A DNA stretch of 57,713 nucleotides from Candidatus Omnitrophota bacterium (GCA_016197155.1 JACPWF010000032.1:1-57713); one strand, 5' to 3'; shown: positions 2 to 29,597, counted from the stretch's first letter. Notes: generated by a model from the letters alone, not told the origin. A program made the numbers and translations.

Positions 2-3000
2 CTTGACCAAAGACAACTCACAGCCGAAGTCTACGGCCACACCACCCTCCTCGGTCCCTTCAAAGACTCACAAGGAACCATCATTGGCTCTCTCTCAAGG
101 CATGAGCCCAATGACAGACCCGCTTTTTATGAGGTTCGTCTCTTAAACGGACAGCTGAGAACCGTTTCCACTTTTCGTTTCCCCGGTGACACGCAAGACC
201 GTTTGAGCGTGATGATTGATGCCCCACTCGTGGGGAAAAGACAGTCGGCTTTTGAGGTAGTCATCTTGCCGAACGGCGGATCATTCATGAGGCAAACCCC
301 CGTCACTCAACTCATTTACCGTTCCTATGATCCCAAAACCGGTGATGCGTTTCTGGAGTCGTGGTTAGGCGACAGCCGCACCCCTCGCCCCCGTAAACCC
401 GCTCGTACCTACGTTCGTGGCGGAAAAAATTATTTCCCGTCTGTTTTCAGAAAACCCGGCGAGAAAAAGGACCGTTATGCGGTATCGTTCGCGCCACCCA
501 AACCGGACGGGAAAACAGTGGCCGGTTCCCACGAACTGACCGTGTCCCCGACTCGTGTCAATGTCTCACGCGGAACCGTCGTCCAGTCCATCCTTCACGG
601 CTACAATCCGGATACCCGTGAAGCCCTGGTTGAGTCCTGGATCGGCCCGAAGGGCTCCAAGCGCCCCACATTCAACAGAACAGTAACCTACGTGGACAGG
701 TTGGGGACTTCCCTTCCCGGGATTATTTTTTATTCAAGGGGTTCTTTTAGGGAACGCTACGCGGTTCTTCTAAAAAAAACTGTAGCGGACGGAAAGACGG
801 CAGTGGGCGCCCGGGAAGTATGGATAGATCCCAAGACAAGAAGGATTCGCATATCGCCACAGCCTGTTGTTTGGGCCATTTATCACAGTTACAATCCCAG
901 AACCGGAGAGGCTTCGATGGAATCGTGGGTGGGAGGCAAGGGGACCAAACCTGCCGTCGGGGTCAACTATAGCGTCATCGATGACAACGGCGTCAGTCAC
1001 CCCGTTTTCAAAGATGACGCCGGCGTTTATTCCATGCCGCCGCTTAATACCAAACTCGATGCGCCCGGGAAATCCACCATCACTTACGTCGTCAATTTCC
1101 GGACGCGTCAGATATCCAGTCAAAGAGTCGCCAAAGTAGTTGTCGTTAAAAATTATTTTCGCGGCGGAGTGGGAATCGGCCAGATTTTGAAGGTTCTGCC
1201 GTTCCCGTTAAACGGCGACGTTTATCACGTGCTGACACGGATCGATAACTTGAGGATGCCCGTCCACGTGGACGAAGACGGAAAGGTTTCCCTCATTTCT
1301 CCCCGCGCCCGGCTACAAAATGCCGGTGACACGGCGATCGCTTACGTGGACGATCCCCGGACCGCGGGGCCTGATTATGCCAAGCGGGTGTCCAAACTCA
1401 CCGTCGAAAAGGTATTCGTGGAAAATGGCAGGGTGACGGGCCGTATTCTACGCATCGAGCCGTTTGGCGCCGAATACAAGGGTGCAATTTTTAGGGATGT
1501 GTCGGATGCCAAAGGGGTCTTGCGTTACCACGTTCGCCTGAAGGACATTCCGTCCATGATTTATGAAATTGCGCGTGACGATTCGGGTGTCGAGCTTGGA
1601 TCAAACAACTATTATTATAACGACCGCGCGAAAAAAATGAGCGAAATCAAGGGTTCTTTAGTGGGAGCGACAGGTTTCCTGCCTGAGAAAGATGAGAAAG
1701 GAAATCTCAGAGGCATAGAGATCCGTACTAGCGAACCCATTGATTTTCGGGCGCTGTCCAAAGAATACCGTGAGAAAATCCGCCGGCGCGGAAGAGGCGC
1801 CAGACTCGCCCTATCCAAAAAAGCGGTCCTGCTCGGGATGAGCGCCGTTTTACTCGCGGTTATGAATCACCGTCTCTTTTTCCCTCCGAGGGTTCCGAAG
1901 CCATCCGGATCTTCGATCAGAGCCGTGTCTTCCGAAGACTGGTTAAGAAATTACGATCCCAATAAACGGTCGGACAGCGAGGTCATTTTTCAAGCGGACC
2001 CCGCCCGTCACGTTTTAACGGTGAAAGTTTTGATGCCGGACGGGAGCCACCGAACGCTGGAAAAGAAAGACCGCGCCGCCATTAATTATCAGCCGACGGA
2101 AAACACCGATAACCGAAACATCGCCTACTACACCTACGGGCACATGGCCGAGCTTGTGGCCGCCCTACTTTCGCCGGATGACCCTATTTTCCAGCATCCG
2201 GTCCTGCGCCGCCTGGGCATTCCCCGCGAGAGAGGCCAAGATCACGCCAAAATTTTACGTCAAATGGGCGTGCGCGTGCTTCGCTTGTATTCCGAACCCG
2301 ACCGGGACCAAAACCCATACGACTACGAAGGTTTTAATCTCATTATGGATCATGTCCATGAGGAACGGCATGGCGGGTTGTCTGTGATCGGCACTCACTG
2401 GGCGGGACTCGGGCCTTCTTTTCCGGGTTTTCCGGCCCTCGGCAAGAACACAACTGAAACCCGCGAAGCCGTGAAGCGGAGCGTCGAGCGCATCGTAGAA
2501 CAATACGCCGCAAAGCCCTGGTGGTTAGGCATGATTCTGGGAGTGGAAAATAACGCGCACGTGACAGGCGGTTTTTTAAGGCGGGAAGAGGATGGATATG
2601 AGTTAAGTCTCGCGCAACACTACGAATTTCAGGCATGGCTTGCCCAGGCCGCCAAGAAAAAAGAAGAAGAAATGAGCGGCTCTTTGCGTTTAAAGATCCG
2701 GCACCCCTATGGCATCGGCAACGCCTATCTGACAGACCAAGAGGCCGGTTTAATAAAAGCGGCGAACAACCGATACGGCAACCCCATCGACTACATTGCC
2801 GGCACGTTTTATCGGGGGAACGGGATTATTCCAGGCGATCCTCGCGATATCGTCCGTGTCATGCGGGCCTCCGGGCAAGCGGGTTTGCCCTTCATGCTCG
2901 CGGAAGTGGGAGCTCCCGCTGTTTCGCCCACAGACTCTGCTCCGTTGGAATACTTGAATAAAGTTTATGCTTCCCTTCTTCCCGATCAGCAATGGGTTTA

Positions 3001-6000
3001 CGCCGTCGCTCCTTTTGAGGCAACCTCCGAAGAATGGAAAGGGGGTCACCCGAATGAAAAACGCTTTGGAATCATGAACAATCAAAACCGCGAGCGTTAT
3101 TTTGAAAAATGGATTGGTATCTCACCGGCCCGTTTGGCGCGCCAGATTTTGTTTTCCCGATTCAGTCCGCTCATTTGGCTGGGTTTATTTTTATTCGCCG
3201 GCACACTTTTGGGTCCCCCGGTATCGGCTCAAAAAGTTTCCAACCAATATTATCAGAGCAGATTTAGTAAAAAATTAGGAGGCCAGGTCCTGTTCCAACC
3301 TGCCGGTGAATCCATCAAAGCCTCATTCTTCAGCGCACCCACACCCACAGGCCGCACCGTCATTTACAACTCCAAACGCTATCCCGAAGCGCGGAGAACT
3401 GATAAAAGGAACGGCCGCGTCCAGCGTCTGGCCATCGTGGGAGAGGGGGAAGAAAAAGGCAAAGAGGTTGCCCGGCTCGACCTTCTGAAAGGGGAGGCCG
3501 AGGTGCTGGAATCCGAGGGGTTCTCCCACGTCCACGATTTTTCCGTCAACCCCACTAACCCCTCAGAAATCATCATCGCCGGACCCAAGAAGCTAATCAT
3601 TTTGTCAAAAAAAGACACCCAGGGCCGGATCATCGCCAGAAAGACCCCTGTTCGCGCCGATAAAGCGACGCGCCACAACCCCGAAGGGCTGGATGATGAC
3701 AACGCGTGGGACGAAGCATACACGTCTGAAGGCAGTATGGTCGAAATCGCCCGCGACGGTTTTGTGACAACTTACGATCCAATACACGAGGGAAAAACCG
3801 GCGTGCTGAAACCTCTAAGAAAGTATCGTCTCGAAAGCGGACCTGGCGGCAGGACTGTGAGGGTTCTTGTCAGACAAATCGAAGTTTCTGTTAGTTGGCA
3901 GAGGAAAATTATTCATACAAAAGAAATTCCCGTGGATCCGGACGGAGGACAGATCGAAGAAACAGCCGCTAATGAGCGGATCGATCGTGAGATGACCTTT
4001 GACGGAGTGCTTTTGGTTGAAATCCGCCGATGGAAAAGTCCGTCCGGTCGGCGGATGTCTCAACGTACTTTTTACGATGAGGCCGCCTCACGGGCCGTCG
4101 GAGGGCAGGTGCCCTCCCGTTCCGATTTTTCCGTCGACGGCGTGATTTATTCCAAAACCACTCATCAAAACCCTGTTTCCATGGAGACGGCTCTTGGAGG
4201 AAAAATAGACCGCCTTGATCCTGAACTGCGGGCGTTATGGACTGCTCAAGGGATAAGAGACAACACCATGATGCAGCCGGCGACCACGGTGACCAGGAAT
4301 GGGATAGGGTCGATAGAATACCGAAGGGTCGGGGACAAGACGGGGCGGTTGGTTGTCACGAAGGCCGGGGGCACCCTGAGCCTCGCCGTGGATTGGGATT
4401 TGGAAAATCACCCGGTACACAGTTTTAAAATAACACCTGGCGGCCACGTGACGCATGAATATATTTCAGACGGCAAGGGAACTTTGGCGAGTTTTTTCTC
4501 GTCGACTCGGAGGGGTCAGAGGGACAAACAAACATTTCTCTCTCTCACCAACCGCTTACGCGGTCTCAACGACAACACAGAGTTAAAAGTCGTCCGGGAA
4601 ATTCCGTGGGTTCGTCGAACCGTCAATGGAGAAATGGAATATACCCGTCCCACAAGCCCCGAGGCCGAGACCAGAATATTCTATCTGTCCCATGATCCGA
4701 TGGGCTTGCCGGTATGGTCCGAACGGGTGGTTGCAAATGGGGATTTGCATCGCACGGTCTATTTTCCCGGAAAACGCGCTCTAAAGCTTTCCAACAAGAG
4801 CAAATTTTTCGGAGGCGCCGGCTACGCATATTGGCGCATCCGCCTGGGGGTGGCTTATGGTTACAATCTGCCGCTGGATAGGGCGCGAGGCAACGAAACT
4901 TTCAACGCATCTTCTTTCGACACGTTTGATTTTGAAATCAGAGGTCAGTCCGGAGGGGAAAAATACCAGGTCATTTTTATCGACGCGCAAGGGCGCCGGG
5001 CGGTTTGGACGCCGGATCCGGCGGGCAAAACCTATCAAGTGGTCAAAATACCCTTGGCGGCCATGAAACGAAAGGGAGTGAATCTCGAAAAACTCATCAA
5101 TATCGTGTTTTCGTTTGGCGGTGATGTGGGCAATCCAAAAGGCGCCACCCTCTACGTCAATGATTTCCTTTTCCGTTCACCAAACCAGGCTGTTCCCACC
5201 AGTCTGTTTCGAGGTCCCGTCGAATCTCTGGGCGATACAGACTCGCATATTTTCACCGCGGAGACTATCAACAACAGTGCTTCCTCGTTGGGATTGGTTT
5301 CCTCCTATACGTACAACGCCTCACGGACACGATCCGAACGGGACCCGCTTTTGGTCTCGACAACGGACTATATTCTCACCGATTCCGACGGCAACCACTA
5401 CTTCCTTTACGGCGAGGAAGAAAGCCAGGTGAGTTTTGTCGAAGTGAAGAGTTCGGAAAAGAAGCTACTCTATCGGATCTATCTCAATGGTTACGTGAAG
5501 GACAATTATTTAAGCATCCAAAGGGAGCGCCATTACTTCGATGCGAATGAATTGCCCGTTTATGCGGTTGACGAATTTACCGGCGATCTTTTGTGGATAG
5601 TTTATACCCGCCACCTTCCCAATGGAGACACGGTGGACTGGAAGAGGCGTGTTCACAACGGCCACTTAACACAAGAGGAACAGGTCAAGCTCTTTGGTCC
5701 GGACGGCAACCAGCGTTGGGAGAGGTATCTCGGGGATCAATTCGATCTTGTCCGAGGCAAACGCGTGCCGCGCCGGATCTCCTGGACTCCTTTCATTGGC
5801 CCCGAACCCGACGGAGTTGCCTGGAATCGGCGGCTCCAAGAAGTTCGTGGTTTGATGAACGAGCGTCCCCACTCCTCTCTTTTGAAAAAGGGCTTAATCG
5901 GAGAAGAAGGGAAGACCCCACAGCACCTGCCTTTTCAATTGCCCGAGGAGCTTGTGAAGGCAGGCGAATGGATTTTGGCGGCGGGATTTTTTATTTCATT

Positions 6001-9000
6001 GCTGTTGGCGGGAATCGTATGGAGTAAGCGGAGAAACCGTGCGTATCGTTTCTTGGAGGGGGATGCCGAAGCCGGTGTTCGGCGAGCGGCCCACGATCGT
6101 TATCTTCAGTCACGGTCCGAAAGACAGGGGGCTCGGTTATCCAGGCACACTTCTTTTCAGGAAATTGAGAATCGCTATCGAAGCGTTTTGGAGACTTATT
6201 GGAATGAATTGTACATTCCGGAGGCTGACAGTTCCCTATTACCAAAAGAAAAATTGATTCAAGCCGTTTTGAGGGACCTGTATGCGTCCTGGAACCGGCC
6301 CACCTCCGAACGATCCATTACTGCCTTGGCTGGCGACGGCCATTATGTGATCATGCCCAGCGTGCGGGAAGGCGTGGACTGGGAACTCGTGCCGCTACTG
6401 GATCATTTCCGTGCGCAGGCGTTCGGCATCGTTACCGAAGAATTGGCCGGAAATTTTCATTTTATTGAGTATCTTGTCGAAAAAAGCAAAACGATGGAAG
6501 CGGCCCGTATTTTGGAAATGGTCAAGGCGTACAAGGCCTTCTGGTACGACTGGATTCAAGGCCATGAGTTCCCACTCATCATGAACAAGGTCATCGGGGA
6601 CGAAGAAGCGTTCAGTTTCGAATGGTTTGTGGTTTTCTATGAATACCGCAGTCGTTTTGGTTTGGAAGAGGGGGCGGCCCGGGATCTCGATCAGGATCCG
6701 TCCCTCGTTCACAAAAGGCTCATGGAAGAAAACGAACGGGCCAAAACCGATTTCAACATGAGTCTTAGAAGCCCCCTGCGCCTCGAATTGGCGGGTTTTG
6801 TGAAGGCCCAAATTCCGCATGTGTTTCAGAACCCTCTGCGTCACGCGTTTTCGCGGGAAAATATCCAAAGCTATTTTGCGCAGGGGCCTACGGCGATGCT
6901 GGGACATGTGTTCTGGTTTACCGTCACAGCATTTTGGATACTGACGCTTTACGTTCAGTACCCTCAATGGGGGCACTATCTTATTCCTTTTATCCACTCC
7001 TTTTTCACGGACATCCAGGGCTTTACCCATCCGGCCGGCCCGGTTGTCATGGGCGGCCTTATCCTGACTAATCTTTATTTCCTCGAGAGGGCTACGCGGA
7101 ACCTGCGACATTTTAGGGAGTTTTTCACCGTCTTGGCGGGCACGGGACTGGTGTATTTTATCAACGATCTTTTTCATCTTCATTTTTTTCCCGAATCTGC
7201 TTTGGGAGGGACGCTTTTGGTCATGCTCGCCACGATTCCGATCTGGCTTTTTACCAAACTTCTTTATGCTTTCCCCGCCTGGACACTCATGGCGGGCGTC
7301 GCTTTCGTGGCCGGAAAAATTAAGAGGCTAAACACGTTTAAAGGCGATTCACAGCTTGGAAAAGTGGGATCCTACTTCGGGAAGCAATTAACAAAAATCG
7401 CCGAGAAACTGAACGGGCAAGGCGCCCGGTTGACACCCGCGGATGTTGAGAGGGAAATTCTCTCCGAGTTTAGGGATTTGGCCAATGACTTGTACAAAAA
7501 ACGGCTTATTGGCTCTGAGGATCTTGAGCGGATGACAGGGGTTCGGGATCTTGCGGGTATAGATAGTCTGGACTTAGGGGCCCTTCCGGTGACACGGGCC
7601 AAGGACCGTTTGAAACGCTGGGCCAATCGGGTGTCTATCAGGGGGCCGTCCGTCCCGTTGCCCTGGCCTGAGCTTCCCTCCATGTGGGTACGCCTGATCT
7701 GGAAGGGAGACAAGTTTGCGTACTCATGGGATGAGGTAGATAAAAAGGAGACATCCGGCGTCACAATTCTGCAAAAGGTGAGAAGGGCCTATGGAAATGG
7801 GATGGATTTCCGCTATCTTATGCAATTTCTTGTGGACAAAAATCTTATTACGCGGCAAGAGGCGATAGCCGCCATTGATTCAGGAATTGACCAACCAATG
7901 GCCCCCATTCTTCTTGAAGGCAAAAGCGAAGAGGCCCGCCAAGCCATCGATGCTGCCATGATGAGCTGGGTCAATGACAGGCTCCAAACGGTAAAGAAAA
8001 CAATCGATGATACGATGCAGATCCGTGAGGCTTATGAAGCGGCGTTTATTCGATGGTACCGCTCCGAGAATGAAGACGCGGATCCCTTACCGGAACAGGT
8101 GCGGCAGGAAGTGGGTCTCAAATTTAAATTTGTGGTGGGCGTCGCTCAATCGGAGGCCAGACTCAGGCGCGACGAAACCGGTGACAGCGGGCGCGCGCTT
8201 GATTATATGCGGGCGATTCGTGACCTTAACCTTGTCACTGTTTTTTTCCCATTACAGTCGCTTTCCCGGCCTAATCCAAAAGTCGACGACTCCGTGGGCA
8301 GTTACAAGGGGGTGATGCTTTCTTATATCCTCGGTTCCGGAGAAGTCGCCGGCTATGATCTGGCGGTCTTCGTGGACGCCGATACCGAGGTAAACCGCGA
8401 GGATGCCTTCGCTTACCTTCCTTCCTCGGAGCGGTTTCTGGAAAACCCAAGGCTTGGAATACTCAATTTCCGGCAGTACATCTTTAACACCGAGTATAGT
8501 GATCAGACGCGCGTGACCGGCGTGGCGATTGGAACGAAATGGGGTCCGTACCTCAGGGCTCGCTCTTTGGTGGGTCAGCAGGGTTTTTACGGCCACGGCT
8601 CCATATTGCGCACGCGCTATCTTTGGACATTGGTAGGGTCCCAAATGGACAAAGTCGGCGAAGACCTGCCTATTTCTTTCTCCATGAGAATCGGTTTGAA
8701 GCGAATCACACCGAATTTGGCCGAACACCTGGGTAGCGCAGAAGTGGAGCAGGACGAGCTTGTTTGGATGGGTGAGGGGATCGAAACCACTCATGGGGAT
8801 TATCAGGAACCCACCACGAAGAAATGGGCCTCGGCCACGGAACAGGTAGTCAGAAGCCTGATTTTCAGGATTTTTAAAAGGGATCCCTACGTTCCCCGAG
8901 CCGAGAAAGACGACGTGGGGCTCGGCGTCGATTTCTACCGCGTCAACAGCTGGTTTGCCGTTTCCGCTATACTGCTTTACAACATCAGCATTTTCTTTCT

Positions 9001-12000
9001 CGGCATCAGCGCGGCCTCGATCTTTGAAGGAAAATTCGCGCTTCTAGGAGTGGCGGCCGCCCTGTCCATCAACTGGCTTCTCGTCGTTCAGTTGTATGAG
9101 ACGCAGGGGACGGAATTGCGGAGAGGAGGTTGGTTTGCGCCTTTTATTGCTTTGATCCGGTTCCTCGTTCCCGGCGGTTTCAAGGCTTTTCCCCCTCTTA
9201 TTTTTTCGCAGGCCCATGGTGTCCAGATGTCCCGCGACCGGGACGCGCGCTACACAAAGAGCAAAAAAGGCCCCGGGGTAGCCATGGATGTGTGGGAAAA
9301 CACTTACGCCAAAGGAAGGTGGGGGATCATCGTTTCCCTCATCAATATCCCACTCACCCTGATTCAAATGGCGTTGGGTTTGATCAACCAATACGTTTAT
9401 GACACCCACATCGGTTTTCAGGCGTTTGATCCCTGGCTTTATCTTTTCAATTTTCTGTACCTGATGGTGAATTGGGTTACGTTGGTCATGCCGGCATTTG
9501 CCAACCCAACCCCAAACCGCAAACAGAAGTGGGTGGATCTGCGCCGCCATATCCGACAGGGCTACCAGGATATCGGCGCGGGAGTTTGGAACTGGCTGTC
9601 AGATTTCGGCCGCCGGGTTTTGGGGCACCACTACGATGTCAGGCCTGTGCATACTCCCGAACAACTTGGCGACGAATTTACCAGAAGGGATTTGTTGGGC
9701 ATGAGATTGATTGGTCCCTCTACGCCCAGGGGATCGGATAAATTCAATGAACAGTCCTATGCCCTCACGGCTGCCTTTCAATCCGGCCTTGATCCTCTGG
9801 CGATCCGCCGTGAATTTGCAGATAGCCTGAGAGATTCAGGCCTTTTACCCGATGCATTGTACGATCCTGCACAAGAAACAGTTACTTCCCCCACGAGGAG
9901 AGGAGGAAGGAATGGCGCGCGCCTGGCCATGGGATCGTCCCCGGAGAGTGGTTGGGAAGATCGGCAAATTGAACAGGCCCTTCTTCCTTACCCGAGGAAT
10001 CCTGCCACATCGTCTCAACTGAGGGATCTTTTCCGGGAGGGGCCCAGTACGCTTTCCGGGGCGTTTAAGGCGTCTGAATTAACCCGCAGGGACGCGGGTG
10101 ATTACGCGACTTATGTGGAGAGAGTGGAGGACAATTTAAAACGTGTCACCGTTCACGATCTGGAGGCTGTGGCGGACATGCTTTTACACGAGCAAAAAAT
10201 CGTGTCTGAAATGAAGCGCGTGATTCACGATACTCGGCCGGACATGCAGGACTCTATTATCGAAGAGAAGGCGTTGGAGACCGTGAGAAAATGGGGTCTT
10301 GTCTATCCTTTCCTGGTTCAGGAGCTGGAGAAAGCCTTTGCGATAGAACGCTCACTGCAGACGACCATGCTTATCAGCGAAGCCGTGAGAGGGGCCGTGC
10401 CCACAGATTTTGAACTTTTGAAGGCAAAAACTGAATTCAAAGAGCGAAAAGTTTCTCCGGTCGCCTCTCGATCTGACGCGGCCCTTCGTTTTACCCGGTC
10501 TGCCTATTATTACCGCCGCCTGGACGGCACGTTCCCGCGGAATGACTGGACCTCCGTCCAAGAGTTGAAGGTGGCGCAAAACGCTCTCCGTTTTTACTGG
10601 CAGATCGAGCAAAGATCCCTGCGTGGGCGTCAAGATGTGCCAAAGGAATATCAGGATAATCCGTTTACCAAGATGAATGATATCGCCAATTACGTGACCT
10701 ATGAAGCGTTGGCGGGAGAAGACGGAAATTTTGATGCGGGCCCGCTCGATGAGGCCAGGTTCCGTCTCAGAGTGCGTCAGGCCATCGCAGGCAATGAGTT
10801 GGATCTCAATAATCCCACCGTCTTGGACGCCGCTACCGGCAACCTGTCCAAATACACTCAAGGTGTTTTGAGGGAAGCGGCCTACAAGCTTACCGCCCCC
10901 GACGTGGGGGGAGATTATTTCATTGATGAGTTGTTCCATCGCTACATCACTGATGCCGGGAGGCCGATCACGCTTGCCTACATCACGGACAATAACGGTG
11001 AAGGGGTGATTGATCTTCTGTTTGTCCGGGAAATGCTGAGGACCAACCCGAACTTAAGAGTGGTTTTCATACCCAAGTCCGTGCAGATTCGGAATGACCT
11101 TTCTTGGATGGACGTTGAAAAAATATTGGATTTTGACGCGAGGCAACCCGAGGGTCGTCAGCTTTTAAAGGAACTGCGCGAGGAACGGGACAAGCCGGAG
11201 GGGACAAGAAGGTTTGAGCTCTTCAAGGAAGGGGCCGAAATTCAGGGCATTGACCCCGTTCGCATGACCCGGCCTATGGCCGAGATTCTTTTAAAAGCGG
11301 ACGTCATTATCGGAAAAGGCCAGGCCAACGCCGAAGTGCGCGGTTGGAAAAAACCAATTTATTATTTGGCCATGGTGAAGGGGCGCGTTGCCCAGGCCGC
11401 CCATGGTATTTGTAACGGCAGAAAAGATTCAGTCGCCTTTTCCATCCGGTACGGCGCCGACCATTATGTGGACTGGGCGGACAGCGCGTTTAAACGTTAC
11501 GCGGACCCCGTGGCTCGCGAGGACACTCCCGTGGGCCGTCAAACGACACGCGAGTTTATTGACGCTTTGATCCATTGGGAAAACCGGGATGAGTATATTG
11601 CCCAAAGGGACGCTTGGGAAACAAAGCGGGACCAAGCAGTGAAAGAAAAGAAAGCCGGTCGGCCGGAGGCGCTCAGTCGATTGAGCAATCCTCCTGTTCC
11701 ACAATACACAGTCAACCCCGCTTATACGCGTCTTTTAAATGAACAGGGCGGCGATGAAAAGGCGACCTATGAAAGGATTATGGAAGAGGCTGACAGACGA
11801 AAGAGGACTTTTGCGGAAATCGTTGCGACAGTCCAGTCGCTCGGCACGGGCCCATCCCCCCGTGTCAGTTACAATCCAAGCTATCAGAGGGTTATTGACC
11901 ACTACAAAGATAATGAAGAAGCGGCCTTCCAGTCGGTACATGAGAAAGTGAGAGAGTATCGGCAATCTTTTGCGGATTCACTTGCCCGCTGGAGCGCGGA

Positions 12001-15000
12001 ATTGTCTCTGGGCGCCCGGCTGGCCGAAAGCAATAATCAGACTTTATACCGGCGATTGGTGGAGGGGGATTTAAAAAACCAGGAAATAGATGCCCTGCCC
12101 CTTTCGCGAAAAGCAGATCTCTTGAGAGGTTTAGACTTGAGTTATTATGCGGACATGCAGGAAAAGTTCGTTCTTTTTTCGGGGGCCCCGGGATCAGGTA
12201 AAGGATCTTTAGTCAAACTGACTTTTGATCTGGAAAAAGGCGAGTATAAGGATTTTGTCACAAGGCTTCTGCTTTATCACACCCGTCGTCCTCGGCGAGG
12301 CGAGGTGGACGGCGTCGATTATCATTTTGGTTCTGATAATGTCGGTGATCAATTGACGAACCGCCTTTGGGTATTAAAGGAAGCGGGGAAAATCATTGTC
12401 GCTTACGTGAATAAACAGCTTCAGGGCATCGCCATCCGGCATTTTGTGGAACGCGCGATAGTGCATTATGGAAGGCCTTCTGAGAGGGTGCTCTCCACAG
12501 ACAAAAATTCAAAACTCGACGCAACGGAAAGAGGTGGGCAGACCGTAACGGTTACGATGGTCGACCGCGGGATCGATGGTCTTGAAGAAGTTTTTTCCGG
12601 AAAGAAAATTACGGTGCTGGAAGGCGGTTATGGTTGGTTCAAAGAGATAACCAAGAGATATCCGAGGATTTTCACGGTTTTTGTTTCGCCGTTTAGCGAA
12701 CGGCAGCTTGAATTGAGGGCGGAGAACCAGCGCCAAATCGAGGAAAAATTTACTTCGATGGATGACCAGATCGTTGCTTGGAATTTATTGAATCAAATGA
12801 GAAACGATATGGGCGCAGAAGAACTTGATCTGAGGGACGAAAAGACTTTGAGTGAGTTGAAAGCCGCCGTTCTTCGTTGGAAGAGAACCTATTCTGACAT
12901 TCTCTTTAATAAAGAAAGTAACATAACTAGAGACCGCGAACTCCCCCAAATCCAATCCGATGCCATGCAAGAGTTGGGCCGCCATCCGGGGGATTCGATG
13001 GACGCGCTCAGGAGAAACTACCTGCTGATTCAATCCCGTTGGTTTATCAACGAAATCGATCACCTTTTGGAGCATTACTTTAGCCATGATTTCAGAGTGA
13101 GAGGGGAGGATGTCGGCTTGGCTCGGGCCTTGGCTTATGAGATACAAATGAAGCTGGCCAGGGACGTCAAACGCGGTGACACCGCGTTCATGCTGGCTTT
13201 GACGACAGACCGTCGGAAAGAGGTTGCGGGGGTTTTCCATCCTTCTCAAGACATGTTTAACCGCGTGATTGAGGGGGTGGCTCAGATTTTCCTGGCCAAG
13301 GAGTATTATGAGGGTAATCGTCAAGGTATGGGGGCGATCATATTTAATCCGTATGTCTACGATGGTCAAGACATCGGCACCAGGATTCAGGCCGTGGCGG
13401 ATGATTTCGTGAACCAGTATTTCTCCTACTTGCTTAAGGCCATCAATCGGGAACAGGCGAAAAGCGGTACCGAAGGCGCTCGTCTGGCTTCTCAACCCTT
13501 GACACTTAAGACAATTCTTCTTAGAAGAAAACAGAGCCGGCGGGAAATTCTTGATCGGATAGGCTTGGCACCGGAGATTGTCCATCAAATGTCCGGAGTC
13601 GATCCGCTGGCGGGTTCAACCACTGAAGAAGGATTCGTGGGCCTTTTGGTAAATCATTTTTCATCCGATGCGGCCTCATTGTTCAAAGAAAGGCCCGCTG
13701 AGGATATTCTGGAATCCATGAATAGCCATGAGCTCATGGAATTGTTGAAGAAAATAGGGGTCAAAAAGGTGCCCCGTTCCAAGAGATTCTACGTCATCTC
13801 CGGTCCTTCCGGGGTGGGCAAGGGAACGTTGATCATGGATGGCCTGATGAAAAAATATAGCGACGTGATGCGCCGTGAAATTTTGTACAACAGCCGTAGG
13901 AAACGACTTGGAATCCGTCCCGAAACGGACGGCGTGGACTACCACTTTAGGACTGAGGCCGATCTCACCCAGTCGCAAAAAGACCATGGATTTATATTGA
14001 TAAAAGAACCCTTAGGGGGAGACATTCATGGCATTGACCCCCAGGCCATTGAGAGGAGCCTGGATTTGGCCCAGATCACCATCATGGAGATGGCCAATAA
14101 CGCCGCCGCCGCAGTCCGTGAGCGATGGCCGGCCACCTCCATTTTTATTACGCCTTTATCAAATGAGGAAATCAGAAACCGCATGGCGCTTGGCCGGAAG
14201 ACGCGCGAACAGGTCATCAAGGAGGAAATCACCAGGCGTATCGAGTCCCGCAACAAGCAGAGACATATCGCCTTGTCTCGAGACACTCTCAAGGCCAGGC
14301 TGGACTATGCCGTGGAGCAAATCAATAGACGAAACGAGTATGATTTCATCGTCGTGAATCCCCTTGACGCGATTGACGCGACCCTCGAGACTTTGGCTAG
14401 AATTATTTTCAGGAGCGCCTTGTCCGCCATTTTTGAAGAAGATATTGCCAATGGTCGTCACTATGTTCTTTTGTATCAAGAAAAAACGCCTCTCAGCGAA
14501 ACCAAACGCATCTTAAGGGCTTTGAACACTCACTATGAATTCATAGAGGGTCCCGAGATCGTGGACCCGGACGTACTGACTTATAGGTTAGAGGAATTGA
14601 TTAGGCAATTGCGGTCCATGTCTCAGGAGGATCGGGTTGGGACCGTGGAAGAGCAGGAACGGCCGGGCGAGGGCCTTCTTTATATAGCCCAACACTGGCT
14701 GGATCTCAATATTACCGGAAATCCCAATCATGCGAGAGTCTTACGGTCCGTGAGGGAGATTCGGACAATGCAAGCGCCCGCCGGGGCGCGGTTGACTTTC
14801 GGAATTCTAAACGAGTTTTCTTTGCGCTTTTTGAGAATTTTAAAGGCCTATCATTGGAGATGGGCCAAAGCCGTTCGTGATATCAACGAATATGCCAAGG
14901 CCCTTCGTCAAACTTTTTTGCAAACGGTTGTCACTCAGGAGTTTTTCGATGTTCTGGGTGAGAATGGTTTGCCCTTGGGGTTTGCCAAGCCCAGGGAGCT

Positions 15001-24000: not shown

Positions 24001-27000
24001 TCGCCAGAACGGTATCTATGGGGTGCTCGGTTTGGACGAAGGGAAATCAGAGATCATGCGAATTTCCATGAACAACGGGACGCCTGTGGACGATGAGGGG
24101 AAAGAGCTGACACCGCCGTTCAAAAATGCTATTAGCGGGGCATTAATTATGAGGGCCGGACAAAATAAAATTGATGATATTCAGTTTGGATTTGACCAGA
24201 GAGAAGATTTAGATGACCGTTTTGTGAGCGATGACGGCCGTTTTAAACAGATGCTAGTGCCACAAAGCACTCAGGACCTTGGGTGGCCAAGAAACACCAG
24301 AATGCCGATGAGCTCATGGGGTATTACGGAAACCGACAAGCTTGGTTTTGTCCAGGTTTGGTCGGAATCGGAAGACGTGCCGCACACCGCAAGCCAGATC
24401 AACATCGACGAGTTATATCAAATACTGGGGCATTTTCGTTGGAAGGACGCGATATTGACCGGAACCAGCGGAGATATTTCTGCCGAAGTCAACGGACAGC
24501 ATTATTCCGCAAAGGCTCGGTGGAACTCAAGTCTCCAAAGTTTAATCGGCAAGCATGATAAAGGGCCCGATCATGGCTACCGGCGTTTGGGCCGTGTTAT
24601 GTTCTTGTATCCCAAATCCGCCGCCCGGCTGGCTAGAGAAGTCGGAGGCTGGAAGTTGGAAGCTGGAAGAGCGCTTCGAGTCATTTTAATGGGACTGGCG
24701 CTGTTTTTCCCGGCCGTGGGCGCGCAGGCGTCGGTGACAAAATACACTCCATACGGCCGCGCGGAGATCACCGCGAGCAACAGCACGCTTCGCACGATTG
24801 GCGCAAAGGCGGGACTGAATCCGTTGGCTTTTCGCACGATGCTTTACCGCAATCGCAGTCAGATGCATCGTCTGGGGATCGGGAAGGATCTTACCGGAGA
24901 GGAAGTGGAGGTCATGCCAGCCCGCCGCGTGCGAGAACTGCTTAGAAAACATTTAAAAGAGAATGAAAAAGTTTACGTCCCCTCTTTCCGCCCCGGCGGG
25001 GAAGGGAATCTCGTCCAAACGGCTGTAAAGAAAGGGACGATTACTTTTAGTCAATACCGCGATGCGGCGGAGACGGGCCGCGGGCCTTCTTTGAGGAAAA
25101 CAGCGAGGAAAACAGCCAAGGTGAACCAGTCGTGGCTGGGAATCGTCTGGTTGCCCGTAGCCGTAGCCGTAGCGGTTGCCGTGATGATCTTTGGAATGAT
25201 TTTGGCCCGCCGGAAAATTGTCCCGGCAGGCCCGCAGTCTGTCATTATCACTCCGCCTCGCGTGTCACGAAATCCATTGCCGCTCGCGAAGATCAACCAG
25301 AATAAGACTCTTGGACTGTGGATCTTTTTGACGGCGGCCTTTGCGGGATTGGTAGAATTATTTGGTTCCCTGGCGGCCAAGCGGCTGATGGAAAAGAAAC
25401 CGCAGGGCATCGGGCCCACAACGAGCGGAGCCTCATTCCGCGCGGCGCCGGCGCGGTCGCCGTTTGAAGCGGCCTGGATGGACAGGCCGTTTACGACGGA
25501 AATCCTGGCCCGTTCGTTCGGACTCCCAAGGAGCGAGGTTTACCGCGCTTTTCGGGCTGGTCTTTTTGGAAATATTTTGGAAGAGGAAGCCAATGGATCG
25601 TTCCGTTTCAGAAAAGGCCTGCGTTCGGCGGATTTTGAGGCCATTCAAAACATTCCCTCTTGGCAGTTCTGGAATCCTTACCGCCGACTCAATCTCACAT
25701 TCCTGGTCAGAGTCAGACTCCAGGCCATGTGGAAGGCGACGTCTTCGGATTGGATGGTTGAGGTCTTCGCGGCCGTGATACGGGAAAATCTTGGCCAGCT
25801 GACGAATGCGGAGCTCCGTTCGGCCCGCTTTGACCTTTTGTTGGAAAAAATATTGGAAAAGAAACTGGCAAACGCTCCATTGACCGCGTATCCCATGGAT
25901 TTGGTGGTGGCTCTCAAAGGACGCTTTGACCATTTGAATCCCGAAGCCGGCGGCCTTCTGGCGTCTCTCACCCTTGATCGGCTCCAAGCGTACCTTCGTG
26001 AGCAGGGGAAAACTCTCCGTGAATCCACGGTTTCGTTGATTAAACGGCGGTATCAGTCACGCGACCAGGCGATAAGACAGCGGATTCGAGACCGTATTCT
26101 GGACATCGAAAAACAATTCGCGCGTGTCCAAGCAGAAATGAGCATGGCTCGTTCTCTGGCGGTTTCACCCGCCGCCCGGCTGGCTCAGAGATCCTTCGGT
26201 CGCCTCCGGCAACCTCCAGGCGACAGATTAGTCGTGGGAATCGAAGCGGCTGAAAAATCAACTTTTGCGGCGCGCCTGGCGGCCGTGAAGGAACTCCTCG
26301 GATCAAACTTGTCCCGTGGTGTCCGTTTCGAGCATGTCCAGTCCGTCGGGCCGGAGAGTGTGGGCGCGACAGGCGCGCGGTTTGCTTATTTTGTCGGTCA
26401 AGACGTGCCGCTGGGTGATGCGGCCGCGAGGCTGGCGGTTTTGAAGGGCGTGCGGGGGATACTCCACCAAGCCAATGCGTTCGAAACGAATGAAGAAGCG
26501 GCCCGGATCGGCATGCTTAAGTTTATGAGAGACATTATGGAAGGACAGCGGGGCGCAAGGCTGGCCATCGGCGATTTAAGACAAGCCTTGTCTGAGGTTG
26601 GAAAAAGTTTGCCTCCACCGGCCCGGATGGCCGTTGTGAACGACGGATCGCGGCTGGCCCTTTTGAGCGGCACGACGCCCATTATTCGGCATCTGGAAAC
26701 TGCCCTCAGTGCGGAAAACAATGAGACGGCCATTGTGTCCGCTCAAGCGGCCGCGCGGTCGGCGGTGGATTATTTACAGCCTTCAAAACCCGGTTTCATT
26801 TCAAGAATTTATAAATTAATCGGCGCCCTGCGCGCGCTTGGCCGGAGCTTTGCCGTTGAACTTGGCGCGGACTTGAGTGGCGAGGTGACGATCGTGACGA
26901 CTCAGGCCGTGATTGACGGGCGCGAGTCTGCCTATCAAGATTCGAGAAATGAACTTTTGAAACGCTTGGAAGCACTGCGCACTCTTAACGTGAGAGAATT

Positions 27001-27342: not shown

Positions 27343-28386
27343 TTATTTTCTTTTACCGCCACCCCCGCCACCAGGCCGTTGTCCACCACCTCCACCGCCA
27401 CCCTGGGGACCGCCGCCTCCGCCACCTTGCGGGCCTGGACGATTGCCCATTCCACCGCCACCCATTTGAGGTCCGCCTTGGCCTCCACCCATTCCTTGGC
27501 GATTACCCATCATTCCCTGACCACCCATTCCCTGGCCTCCCTGCTGACCAGGACGATTTTCACCGCCGCCCATCATTCCCATTCCGGGACGGTTGCCTTG
27601 CATTCCCTGGCCTCCCTGAGGACCTGGAGGATTACCCATCATTCCTTGGCCTCCCCCCATTCCAGGACGGTTGCCTTGCATTCCCTGACCACCCATTCCC
27701 TGGCCTCCCTGAGGACCTGGAGGATTACCCATCATTCCTTGACCACCACTCATTCCAGGACCCCCCTGAGGACCCGGACGATTTTCACCACCACCTTGCA
27801 TTCCCTGACCACCCATTCCCGGGCCTCCCTGCGGGCCTGGAGGATTACCAGATCCAGGTCCACCCATGGGACCGGGAGGATTTACGCCTCCTTGGTCTGG
27901 ACTTGCCCCAGGTCCCTGCCCGTCCGGCAGGCGGGCCCCTGCAGGTCCCGCAGGATTTTCCCAGTTAGTTCCTTGTCCACCGGCCGGACCGGGTGGGTTG
28001 CCGGCGCCGGTGCTGTTGCCGCCTTCCGAATTTTCTTCCCTGCGTTCACGCATTTGATGCATGCGCTGCATCGCCCGCTTCATCTCGGTCTCGTCGACCA
28101 TACCATCCTGATTCCGATCCGTTTTTTCGGCGATGCGCGGATGATTTTCCATAAACTGCTCACCGCGTTGCATCGGCTGTTGTTGAGTATTCGGACTGGC
28201 GCCGGGACCGCCGGCTTGTCCCGGAGGATTTGGCCGCTGAGTTTCGTTGGCACTGGCCTGCTGAGGTCTTGGACCTTGGCCGCCCCCTTTTTCATTTTCA
28301 GCTTGCGAGGGATTAACAACAAAGAAATTCAGGAAGGCGAGGACCAACGTGAGACGAAAAACCGCTTTTGCGTGAATTTTCATCAA
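27343..28386 (-). CDS. Secreted Gly/Pro/Gln/Met-rich, collagen-like low-complexity protein with EF-hand-like motif
   Basis: Signal peptide MMKIHAKAVFRLTLVLAFLNFFVVNPSQA; EF-hand loop DRNQDGMVDETE; tandem NPPGPQGGQGMGGQGMQGNRPGMGGGQGMM repeats. Confidence 0.85.
   Translation of the reverse strand: MMKIHAKAVFRLTLVLAFLNFFVVNPSQAENEKGGGQGPRPQQASANETQRPNPPGQAGGPGASPNTQQQPMQRGEQFMENHPRIAEKTDRNQDGMVDETEMKRAMQRMHQMRERREENSEGGNSTGAGNPPGPAGGQGTNWENPAGPAGARLPDGQGPGASPDQGGVNPPGPMGGPGSGNPPGPQGGPGMGGQGMQGGGENRPGPQGGPGMSGGQGMMGNPPGPQGGQGMGGQGMQGNRPGMGGGQGMMGNPPGPQGGQGMQGNRPGMGMMGGGENRPGQQGGQGMGGQGMMGNRQGMGGGQGGPQMGGGGMGNRPGPQGGGGGGPQGGGGGGGQRPGGGGGGKRK
27914..27935. repeat. Palindromic element (CCCGCCTGCCGGACGGGCAGGG on the minus strand) in the Gly-rich CDS
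   Basis: Same core as 32064-32089 in hemH and the same reading frame (RLPDGQG). Confidence 0.75.
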
Positions 28387-28457
28387 GGCTCCTTTGATTT
28401 GTCAAACCAATTTCCCATCATACTCTTAATTTCAAAAAATTCAAGCAGGGGGGTATA

Positions 28458-29597
28458 ATGACTCCCTATTTTATGGCCCTCGAAAAGAAACTGAAAATTC
28501 TCCACCTGACCTCTCACCTCGACATCGGAGGCATCACGAGCGTCCTTTTGACGTTGTCGAAGGCCTTCCGTGAAAACGGCCACGAGGTGGCGATTTTGTC
28601 CGGCGGCGGAAGCTGTGAAGAGGCGCTACGAGGGGCCGGCGCGCGCGTTTACACCTTCTCCATCCGCACCAAGAACGAACTTTCTCCGAAACTTTTTTTT
28701 GCGCTTCCTAAAATTATCCGTCTGGTTCGCGAGGAAAGATTTAATATTCTCCATGCCCATACCCGCGTAACGCAGGTTTTGGCCGCGATGGTTTCGCTGT
28801 TTACGAAAGTGCCGGTGGTGACCACGGCGCATGGTTTTTATAAACGCCGGCTGTTCAGGAAAATGTTTGGCGCCTGGGGAAAACGCGTGGTGGCCATCAG
28901 CCCTCTTGTGGCTGAGGAGCTTGAAAAAACGCATCGGGTGCCGCGTTCGAAAATTCGCATTGTTTATAACGGCATGGACATCGCGGATTTTAAAAGAAGG
29001 ATGATGGCTCACAATCCTGAATGGATCAAAAAAGAACTGGGGATTGATGAAAAAATATTTGTGATCGGGTCTATTTCAAGACTGGTGCACGACAAGGGCC
29101 AGCATTTTCTGATTGAAGCCGTAAAAAAATTAAACAAAAAACATAAAAATACCATTCTCGTTATCGTGGGTGATGGCCGCGAAAAGAAATCGCTCGAAAA
29201 ATTAGCCTCAAAACTTCCTAAAAATCAGGTGAAGTTTCTTTCCGCTCAGCCGGACATCACAGGCATTCTTTCGGTTCTCGACGTTTTTGTTCATCCGGCG
29301 ACGTTTCGTGAGGGGTTTGGTCTGACGCTTTTGGAGGCGATGACGGCGAAGATTCCGGTGATTGCGACGGACATTTGGGCGCTCAACACGATTATTCGAA
29401 ATGGAGTAAACGGCACGCTGGTTGCTCCCAAAAATGCCGATGAAATCAGCCGTGCGATAGAATCCGTGATCGAGCATCCCGAGACGGCAGGCTCCGTGGC
29501 GGAAAATGCGTTTGAAATGTGCTCCAAACTTTATTCGGCCGAGCGGATGGCCGCGGAATTGGAAACCGTGTACGGCGAGGTGTTGAATGAGCCTTAA
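28458..29597 (+). CDS. Glycosyltransferase family 4 (glycosyltransferase group 1)
   Basis: ILHLTSHLDIGGITSVLLTLSKAF ... VYNGMD ... SRLVHDKGQHFLIEA ... REGFGLTLLEAM. Confidence 0.95.
   Translation: MTPYFMALEKKLKILHLTSHLDIGGITSVLLTLSKAFRENGHEVAILSGGGSCEEALRGAGARVYTFSIRTKNELSPKLFFALPKIIRLVREERFNILHAHTRVTQVLAAMVSLFTKVPVVTTAHGFYKRRLFRKMFGAWGKRVVAISPLVAEELEKTHRVPRSKIRIVYNGMDIADFKRRMMAHNPEWIKKELGIDEKIFVIGSISRLVHDKGQHFLIEAVKKLNKKHKNTILVIVGDGREKKSLEKLASKLPKNQVKFLSAQPDITGILSVLDVFVHPATFREGFGLTLLEAMTAKIPVIATDIWALNTIIRNGVNGTLVAPKNADEISRAIESVIEHPETAGSVAENAFEMCSKLYSAERMAAELETVYGEVLNEP

Follow-up and report, generated by a model that had tools for sequence, protein, structure and literature searches.

A strict pentapeptide at the interdomain joints of giant Omnitrophota proteins as a candidate processing site

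Why does a protein of 9,108 amino acids (aa), encoded by one of the Omnitrophota, poorly known and mostly tiny bacteria, carry the pentapeptide GARLA over and over along its chain? It is still an open question what use bacteria make of proteins of 5,000-45,000 aa, one that a strict word at the joints of such chains renders testable. The protein is encoded on a 57,713-nucleotide stretch of DNA (the window; GCA_016197155.1, JACPWF010000032.1:1-57713), which is the whole of contig C22, one of 40 in a 1.43-Mb genome. Here we identify [G/A]AR[L/M][A/S/T] as an interdomain recognition peptide in a paralogous family of multi-enzyme giants that appear to be exported and belong to one Omnitrophota order. 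We see about an even chance that the motif is the cutting site of a dedicated processing protease and the giants are polyproteins; the cutting, its position, its timing and its agent are what we infer from sequence.

An earlier note on the window had counted nine GARLA, seven [AP]ARLA and three GARL[ST] in one frame, over positions 1796-26659, and had put the chance expectation of GARLA far below one. All counts were reproduced (9 GARLA, 5 AARLA, 2 PARLA, 1 GARLS and 2 GARLT), and composition predicts 0.035 GARLA where nine are observed. The first site indeed begins at 1796, but the last ends at 26566. Among five-residue words that do not overlap the motif, the commonest occurs three times. 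As the word was picked after sight of the window sequence, the real test lies in other proteins.

Motif clusters were present in further large frames of the same genome (6,134 aa on C34, 3,620 aa on C8 and 3,663 aa on C16) and in contig-cut frames on C7 and C15. In genome G006, from the same family, a degenerate DNA pattern for the motif gave 84 matches, in one-strand clusters, versus 9 for a reversed control. Fifty large proteins of the order, 199,504 aa in total, contained 240 GARLA, whereas 200 shuffles averaged 1.08 and never exceeded 4, so that the comparison with relatives proposed in the earlier note came out in its favour. The abundance of A, R, L and G in these proteins is the one argument for chance or composition, but the shuffles rule it out as the source of the motif. 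Permutations of the same letters other than GARLA averaged 3 occurrences, mainly overlapping shifts. The remaining open reading frames (ORFs) at the giant loci held 4 GARLA in 137,355 aa, three of them in ordinary-looking proteins and one in what seems to be a giant fragment. The loci were mostly retrieved through motif clusters; four that were retrieved solely by the N-terminal head domain described below (G010b, G001C55, G013C83 and G014C137) contain the motif or its variants AARLA and GARMA as well. Many giant frames are cut by contig ends, and sites within related paralogues are non-independent. The motif is peptide-selected, and the strict word is restricted to one Omnitrophota order; it is absent from the giants of most other families.

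The motif follows the profile [G>A>P]-A-R-[L>M]-[A>S>T]. Across 45 proteins, position 1 was G 219, A 99 and P 6 times; position 2 was A; position 3 was R, with zero K; position 4 was L 219, M 21, A 9 and F 4 times; and position 5 was A 219, S 45 and T 17 times. P, S and A are favoured before the word and E, D, G, S and P after it. GARLA prevails in most genera, AARLA in G001 and GARMA in the sister family f2.

At the DNA level the word is highly variable. Its 219 GARLA sites are spelled in 148 ways, the six codons of Arg and the six of Leu are all in use, and most copies deviate from the consensus GGCGCGCGG(C/T)TGGCG at 2 or more of 15 bases. When up to two mismatches were allowed, this spelling occurred 178 times in sense frame 0 and twice elsewhere. 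Inserts of 15 bases preserve the reading frame whatever their phase, so this preference means that selection acts on the peptide. This agrees with the claim of the earlier note that the motif is not a DNA repeat and that conservation acts on the peptide. What the note overlooked is an unexpected codon bias: at the motif Arg is encoded by CGG in 50% of cases versus 19% in flanks and giants, Leu by CTG/TTG in 69% versus 43%, and Ala by GCG in 52% versus 34%. Because this bias is significant and limited to the motif, it could be taken to indicate a DNA- or RNA-level element, such as a mobile repeat or a recombination or pausing signal, that encodes GARLA incidentally. The single frame and strand, the divergence of most copies from the consensus and the recovery of the same peptide from every Arg and Leu codon make such an element very improbable. 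The bias towards one spelling also hints at a common source, and together with the linker-like flanks it is compatible with a favoured linker that has no dedicated partner, is kept for folding or solubility and is copied whenever a module is added. We regard this explanation as improbable: Arg at position 3 is essentially invariant and never Lys, the flanks lack similarity, and both the variety of spellings and the frame preference of the consensus spelling speak against it.

The placement of the sites is equally restricted. None of 127 lay within a Pfam domain, versus 11.1 expected (∼1.5e-5 by Poisson), in a test that covers only the parts with Pfam matches, ∼9% of residues. Similarly, 33 copies of the head (15,343 aa) contained no site where 35.3 were expected, and in 28 of the 33 the first site followed 24-79 aa past the head end. 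These results bear out the domain-boundary placement claimed earlier. In an AlphaFold 2 (AF2) model of the head, residues 41-512 were mostly well folded and the motif-bearing tail was disordered, with a predicted local distance difference test (pLDDT) score of 27-39. Sites often lie 3-15 aa from a domain end; they can closely follow one (HATPase and the FBPase C-terminal domain 4 aa, FHA 12, aldolase II and GT48 13, PfkB 23) or precede a domain start (DnaJ 3 aa, GT5 13 aa). The DnaJ unit reads GARMA-QKRDFYEVLGV (GARMAQKRDFYEVLGV...) and has its HPD intact; its beginning is close to that of a free-standing DnaJ. Other self-contained proteins that occur as modules include FBPase, PGI, GT5, GH15, PfkB and guanylate kinase. 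Spacings of 200-400 aa between sites are in excess (151 versus 98 expected), those of 50-150 aa are depleted (41 versus 81), a small peak lies at 25-50 aa, and some sites are only 4-13 aa from the C-terminus. Among paralogues the ends of high-scoring segment pairs are only slightly enriched close to sites. Restriction of a strict word to exposed joints implies that something must recognize the word.

Sites also precede putative targeting signals. Of 114 internal isolated hydrophobic segments, 32 were preceded by a site within 40 aa (10.0 expected, P=3e-4), whereas only 9 were followed by one within the same distance (10.0 expected, no effect). Several of the segments after a site resemble complete Sec or Tat signals, as called by a heuristic rather than SignalP, and three of these are in the window. 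The sites, Pfam domains and signal-peptide-like segments of the window giant are the following.

2-27328, plus strand: giant ORF (open frame 2-27325), 9,108 aa; 5' end cut off by the contig start, N-terminus missing
1796-1810, plus strand: GARLA, first site (aa 599), then the hydrophobic segment LSKKAVLLGMSAVLLAV
3125-3139, plus strand: PARLA (aa 1042), with the signal-peptide-like RQILFSRFSPLIWLGLFLFAGTLLGPPVSA directly after
3140-3229, plus strand: internal signal-peptide-like segment (heuristic)
6128-6142, plus strand: GARLS
7421-7435, plus strand: GARLT
9914-9928, plus strand: GARLA, 5' of the DUF89/ARMT1 unit
10283-11416, plus strand: ARMT1-like (DUF89) domain, PF01937 (Pfam)
12011-12025, plus strand: GARLA
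12161-12337, plus strand: guanylate kinase-like stretch, partial
13475-13489, plus strand: GARLA
13781-14236, plus strand: guanylate kinase-like domain with P-loop GPSGVGKGT, PF00625 (Pfam)
14783-14797, plus strand: GARLT between guanylate kinase and Nudix
15029-15391, plus strand: Nudix domain, PF00293 (Pfam)
15551-15565, plus strand: GARLA, 54 aa past Nudix
15659-15673, plus strand: PARLA (aa 5220), with the signal-peptide-like AAKFTTILTLAAGMFLAVSAGRPTSAQ directly after
15674-15754, plus strand: internal signal-peptide-like segment (heuristic)
18122-18136, plus strand: GARLA
19655-20878, plus strand: GT48-type 1,3-beta-glucan synthase domain, PF02364 (Pfam)
20915-20929, plus strand: GARLA, 13 aa past GT48, in an insert that lies between the GT48 domain and its transmembrane (TM) part and has no counterpart in three GT48 relatives
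21866-21880, plus strand: AARLA
23546-23560, plus strand: GARLA
24620-24634, plus strand: AARLA (aa 8207), then the signal-peptide-like REVGGWKLEAGRALRVILMGLALFFPAVGAQA
24635-24730, plus strand: internal signal-peptide-like segment (heuristic)
26171-26185, plus strand: AARLA
26267-26281, plus strand: AARLA
26423-26437, plus strand: AARLA
26552-26566, plus strand: GARLA, last site
26567-27325, plus strand: C-terminal unit, a tail common to the family, ending in AVGGSA

The earlier note had named several of these domains from the sequence, and Pfam returned DUF89/ARMT1, the two guanylate kinase stretches, Nudix and GT48; GT2 and GHMP, which it had also listed, gave no Pfam match at E<=0.01. An AF2 model of the GT48 region of the window reached a pLDDT of 41.6, having too few relatives, and was not used. 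A homology search of one giant region against a large protein database returned a single weak match. The enzymes in the modules look like additional paralogues, since separate housekeeping-type guanylate kinases are encoded in G000, G006, G010, G005 and G025. The guanylate kinases inside giants (window 13781-14236; G025:C1:130415-130996) are diverged paralogues with intact P-loops. Directly 3' of the window giant lies a 359-aa ORF (27379-28455, plus strand) with no Pfam match.

A signal peptide and a head of ∼540 aa (A2) are common to the giants whose start is intact, and partial heads are found at the cut ends of others. The start of the window giant is missing, and its head is one that we infer. 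Of the 61 genomes in the class, 44 contain the head family, with up to ∼25 matches per genome, either alone or at the start of a giant. E108 and H473 are invariant and H80 is near-invariant. Fold matches were weak (3b55, 2rad, 6xcs and 2g5g; best E 0.029), several of the best that are not coiled coils belong to the EreA/ChaN superfamily, and 2 of 23 heads had a weak PF04187 match; a sequence search of the PDB with the head as query gave nothing meaningful. Some heads carry in-frame inserts (L122:7551-9470, plus strand; L133:4738-6657, minus strand; L125:17312-19231, minus strand) such as VIPAKAGIRSS..DSRFRGND and SEAKQSQIASSPSAPRNDI; by their look, these are dispersed palindromic repeats that have been translated. 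The head of the giant on C8 (G000:C8, ∼28522-28601; L032) is split over two overlapping frames, by a frameshift or an assembly error. At the other end, 37 of 41 giants finish in [S/A]A, as do 6 of the 310 other ORFs, and some giants of other genomes are recovered by a C-terminal profile made from one genome; the shared C-terminal unit with its [S/A]A end (27296-27325 in the window) looks like a C-terminal signal. Cysteine makes up 0.108% of the giants compared with 0.99% of neighbouring ORFs, a ninefold depletion, and the window giant has 2 Cys in 9,108 aa.

This whole-chain signature bears on how the word is recognized. A chaperone, export factor or surface scaffold might bind each linker, as an uncleaved docking or ratchet site, during export or display of the intact chain. 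Such binding would account for the signal peptide, head and conserved [S/A]A end on one chain, for Cys depletion along its whole length, for site clusters 25-50 aa apart and for sites almost at the C-terminus. It leaves unexplained why sites stand ahead of internal signal-peptide-like segments and why many modules (DnaJ with its HPD, HATPase, GGDEF) are cytosolic in character. We take docking as the main rival reading, though less likely than processing.

Under the processing reading, a dedicated endoprotease would cut the giant chain into modules at the motif. The scissile bond would probably be L/M | A/S/T, so that each module would gain a small N-terminal residue. Cutting accounts for the position at joints, for the small residue that follows L/M, for sites spaced about a domain apart and for the targeting signals after the word, and the substitution profile with its zero Lys at position 3 resembles protease subsites. 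In a variant that merges the cutting and docking pictures, the chain would be cut after export.

Several observations weigh against processing. The earlier note had suggested looking for a co-occurring protease, and none was found: the giants scanned with Pfam contained no peptidase domain, and among the Pfam-scanned neighbours of the window giant, mostly ordinary metabolic genes, no candidate stood out. C11 peptidases were absent from 41 genomes in a search whose control worked; C80 peptidases likewise scored 0 of 41, but there the positive control was also silent. Nor is the head obviously a protease, because giants of other families carry it without the motif. The whole chains, modules included, are poor in Cys, which suggests export of the full chain rather than cytosolic release. 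Conserved features at both chain ends would fit an action in cis, and a cut at the sites 4-13 aa from the C-terminus would free little. Of the three roles first suggested for GARLA, a polyprotein processing site nevertheless fits best and a sorting or docking tag comes after it; the strictness of all five positions and the different strict word of another lineage make a recombination-neutral linker unlikely.

That second word is PLDNG, which occurs 88 times in a 45,891-aa protein of G025, a genome from another family. K or R follows 84% of its PL[DN]NG sites. The modules are similar (an HATPase ends 5 aa before a site, and a guanylate kinase is flanked on its two sides by sites at distances of 8 and 14 aa), and 0 of 29 sites fell inside domains, versus 5.0 expected. 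PLDNG plus a subsequent basic or similar residue, written as a DNA pattern, matched 80 times in G025 and only in a scattered manner in 250 other genomes. By eye PLDNG seemed to precede signal peptides, but the heuristic gave 0 of 13. A recurrent word is not a general Omnitrophota trait: head-bearing giants of seven other families had no comparable joint word, and GAPQQ (G168/G221) and TDPKG (G252) proved to be local repeats. A local repeat was also seen in G029, where a 3,988-aa head-bearing ORF (L198, G029:C26) contains SGAAP and TQTHL repeats, probably a local repeat array. No head was found in G025; since head giants of other families in turn lack the word, head and word are separable. Two unrelated words in like use mean that strict words at joints have at least two origins, and the parallel suggests convergent evolution. 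We tentatively propose, at somewhat less than even confidence, that the order produces some of its enzymes in the form of giant polyproteins, which a dedicated protease cuts at a lineage-specific pentapeptide, and that the other lineage evolved the same system with PLDNG.

The joint word predicts exact termini, a cognate enzyme or partner, and the limits of modules in giants that are unreadable by other means. A docking role would amount to a new principle by which giant chains are handled or exported. A cutting role would amount to a polyprotein strategy in cellular bacteria, and we know of none described on such a scale. The term 'bacterial polyprotein' had no match in the published papers searched, and among the papers listed as containing GARLA as a whole word (15 of 22) none appears, from its title and the beginning of its abstract, to describe such a motif.

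How do these giants compare with known systems? Giant ORFs have been described for Omnitrophota, including a 39,678-aa protein of Velamenicoccus (PMC10066038). They share with the 27.3-kb window ORF the phylum, a length >20 kb, hydrophobic segments and few recognizable domains; the passages of that work consulted here mention neither a recurrent pentapeptide nor a common head or C-terminal tail. Sortase and exosortase signals consist of a single C-terminal motif with a TM segment and a basic tail, whereas GARLA is internal and repeated. The head shows a weak fold resemblance to the EreA/ChaN/Tiki superfamily and has the invariant E108/H473, but no score was significant and the head contains a large helical insert. 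MARTX toxins undergo inter-effector autoprocessing after Leu in unstructured linkers, at a small-Leu-small consensus (PMC2900308). Like the apparently exported giants they are large secreted multi-module chains with Leu then a small residue in the linkers. GARLA, with Arg before Leu, does not conform to small-Leu-small; moreover, the giants have metabolic enzymes as modules and a strict five-residue word, and no C80 domain or RTX repeats were seen in those scanned with Pfam. Viral polyproteins combine unrelated enzymes in one ORF, with recurrent short sites for a dedicated protease in the linkers. The giants resemble them in encoding several proteins per ORF with a recurrent site limited to the joints, and differ in that their cognate protease is only putative and that they reside in cellular genomes, with many paralogues in each.

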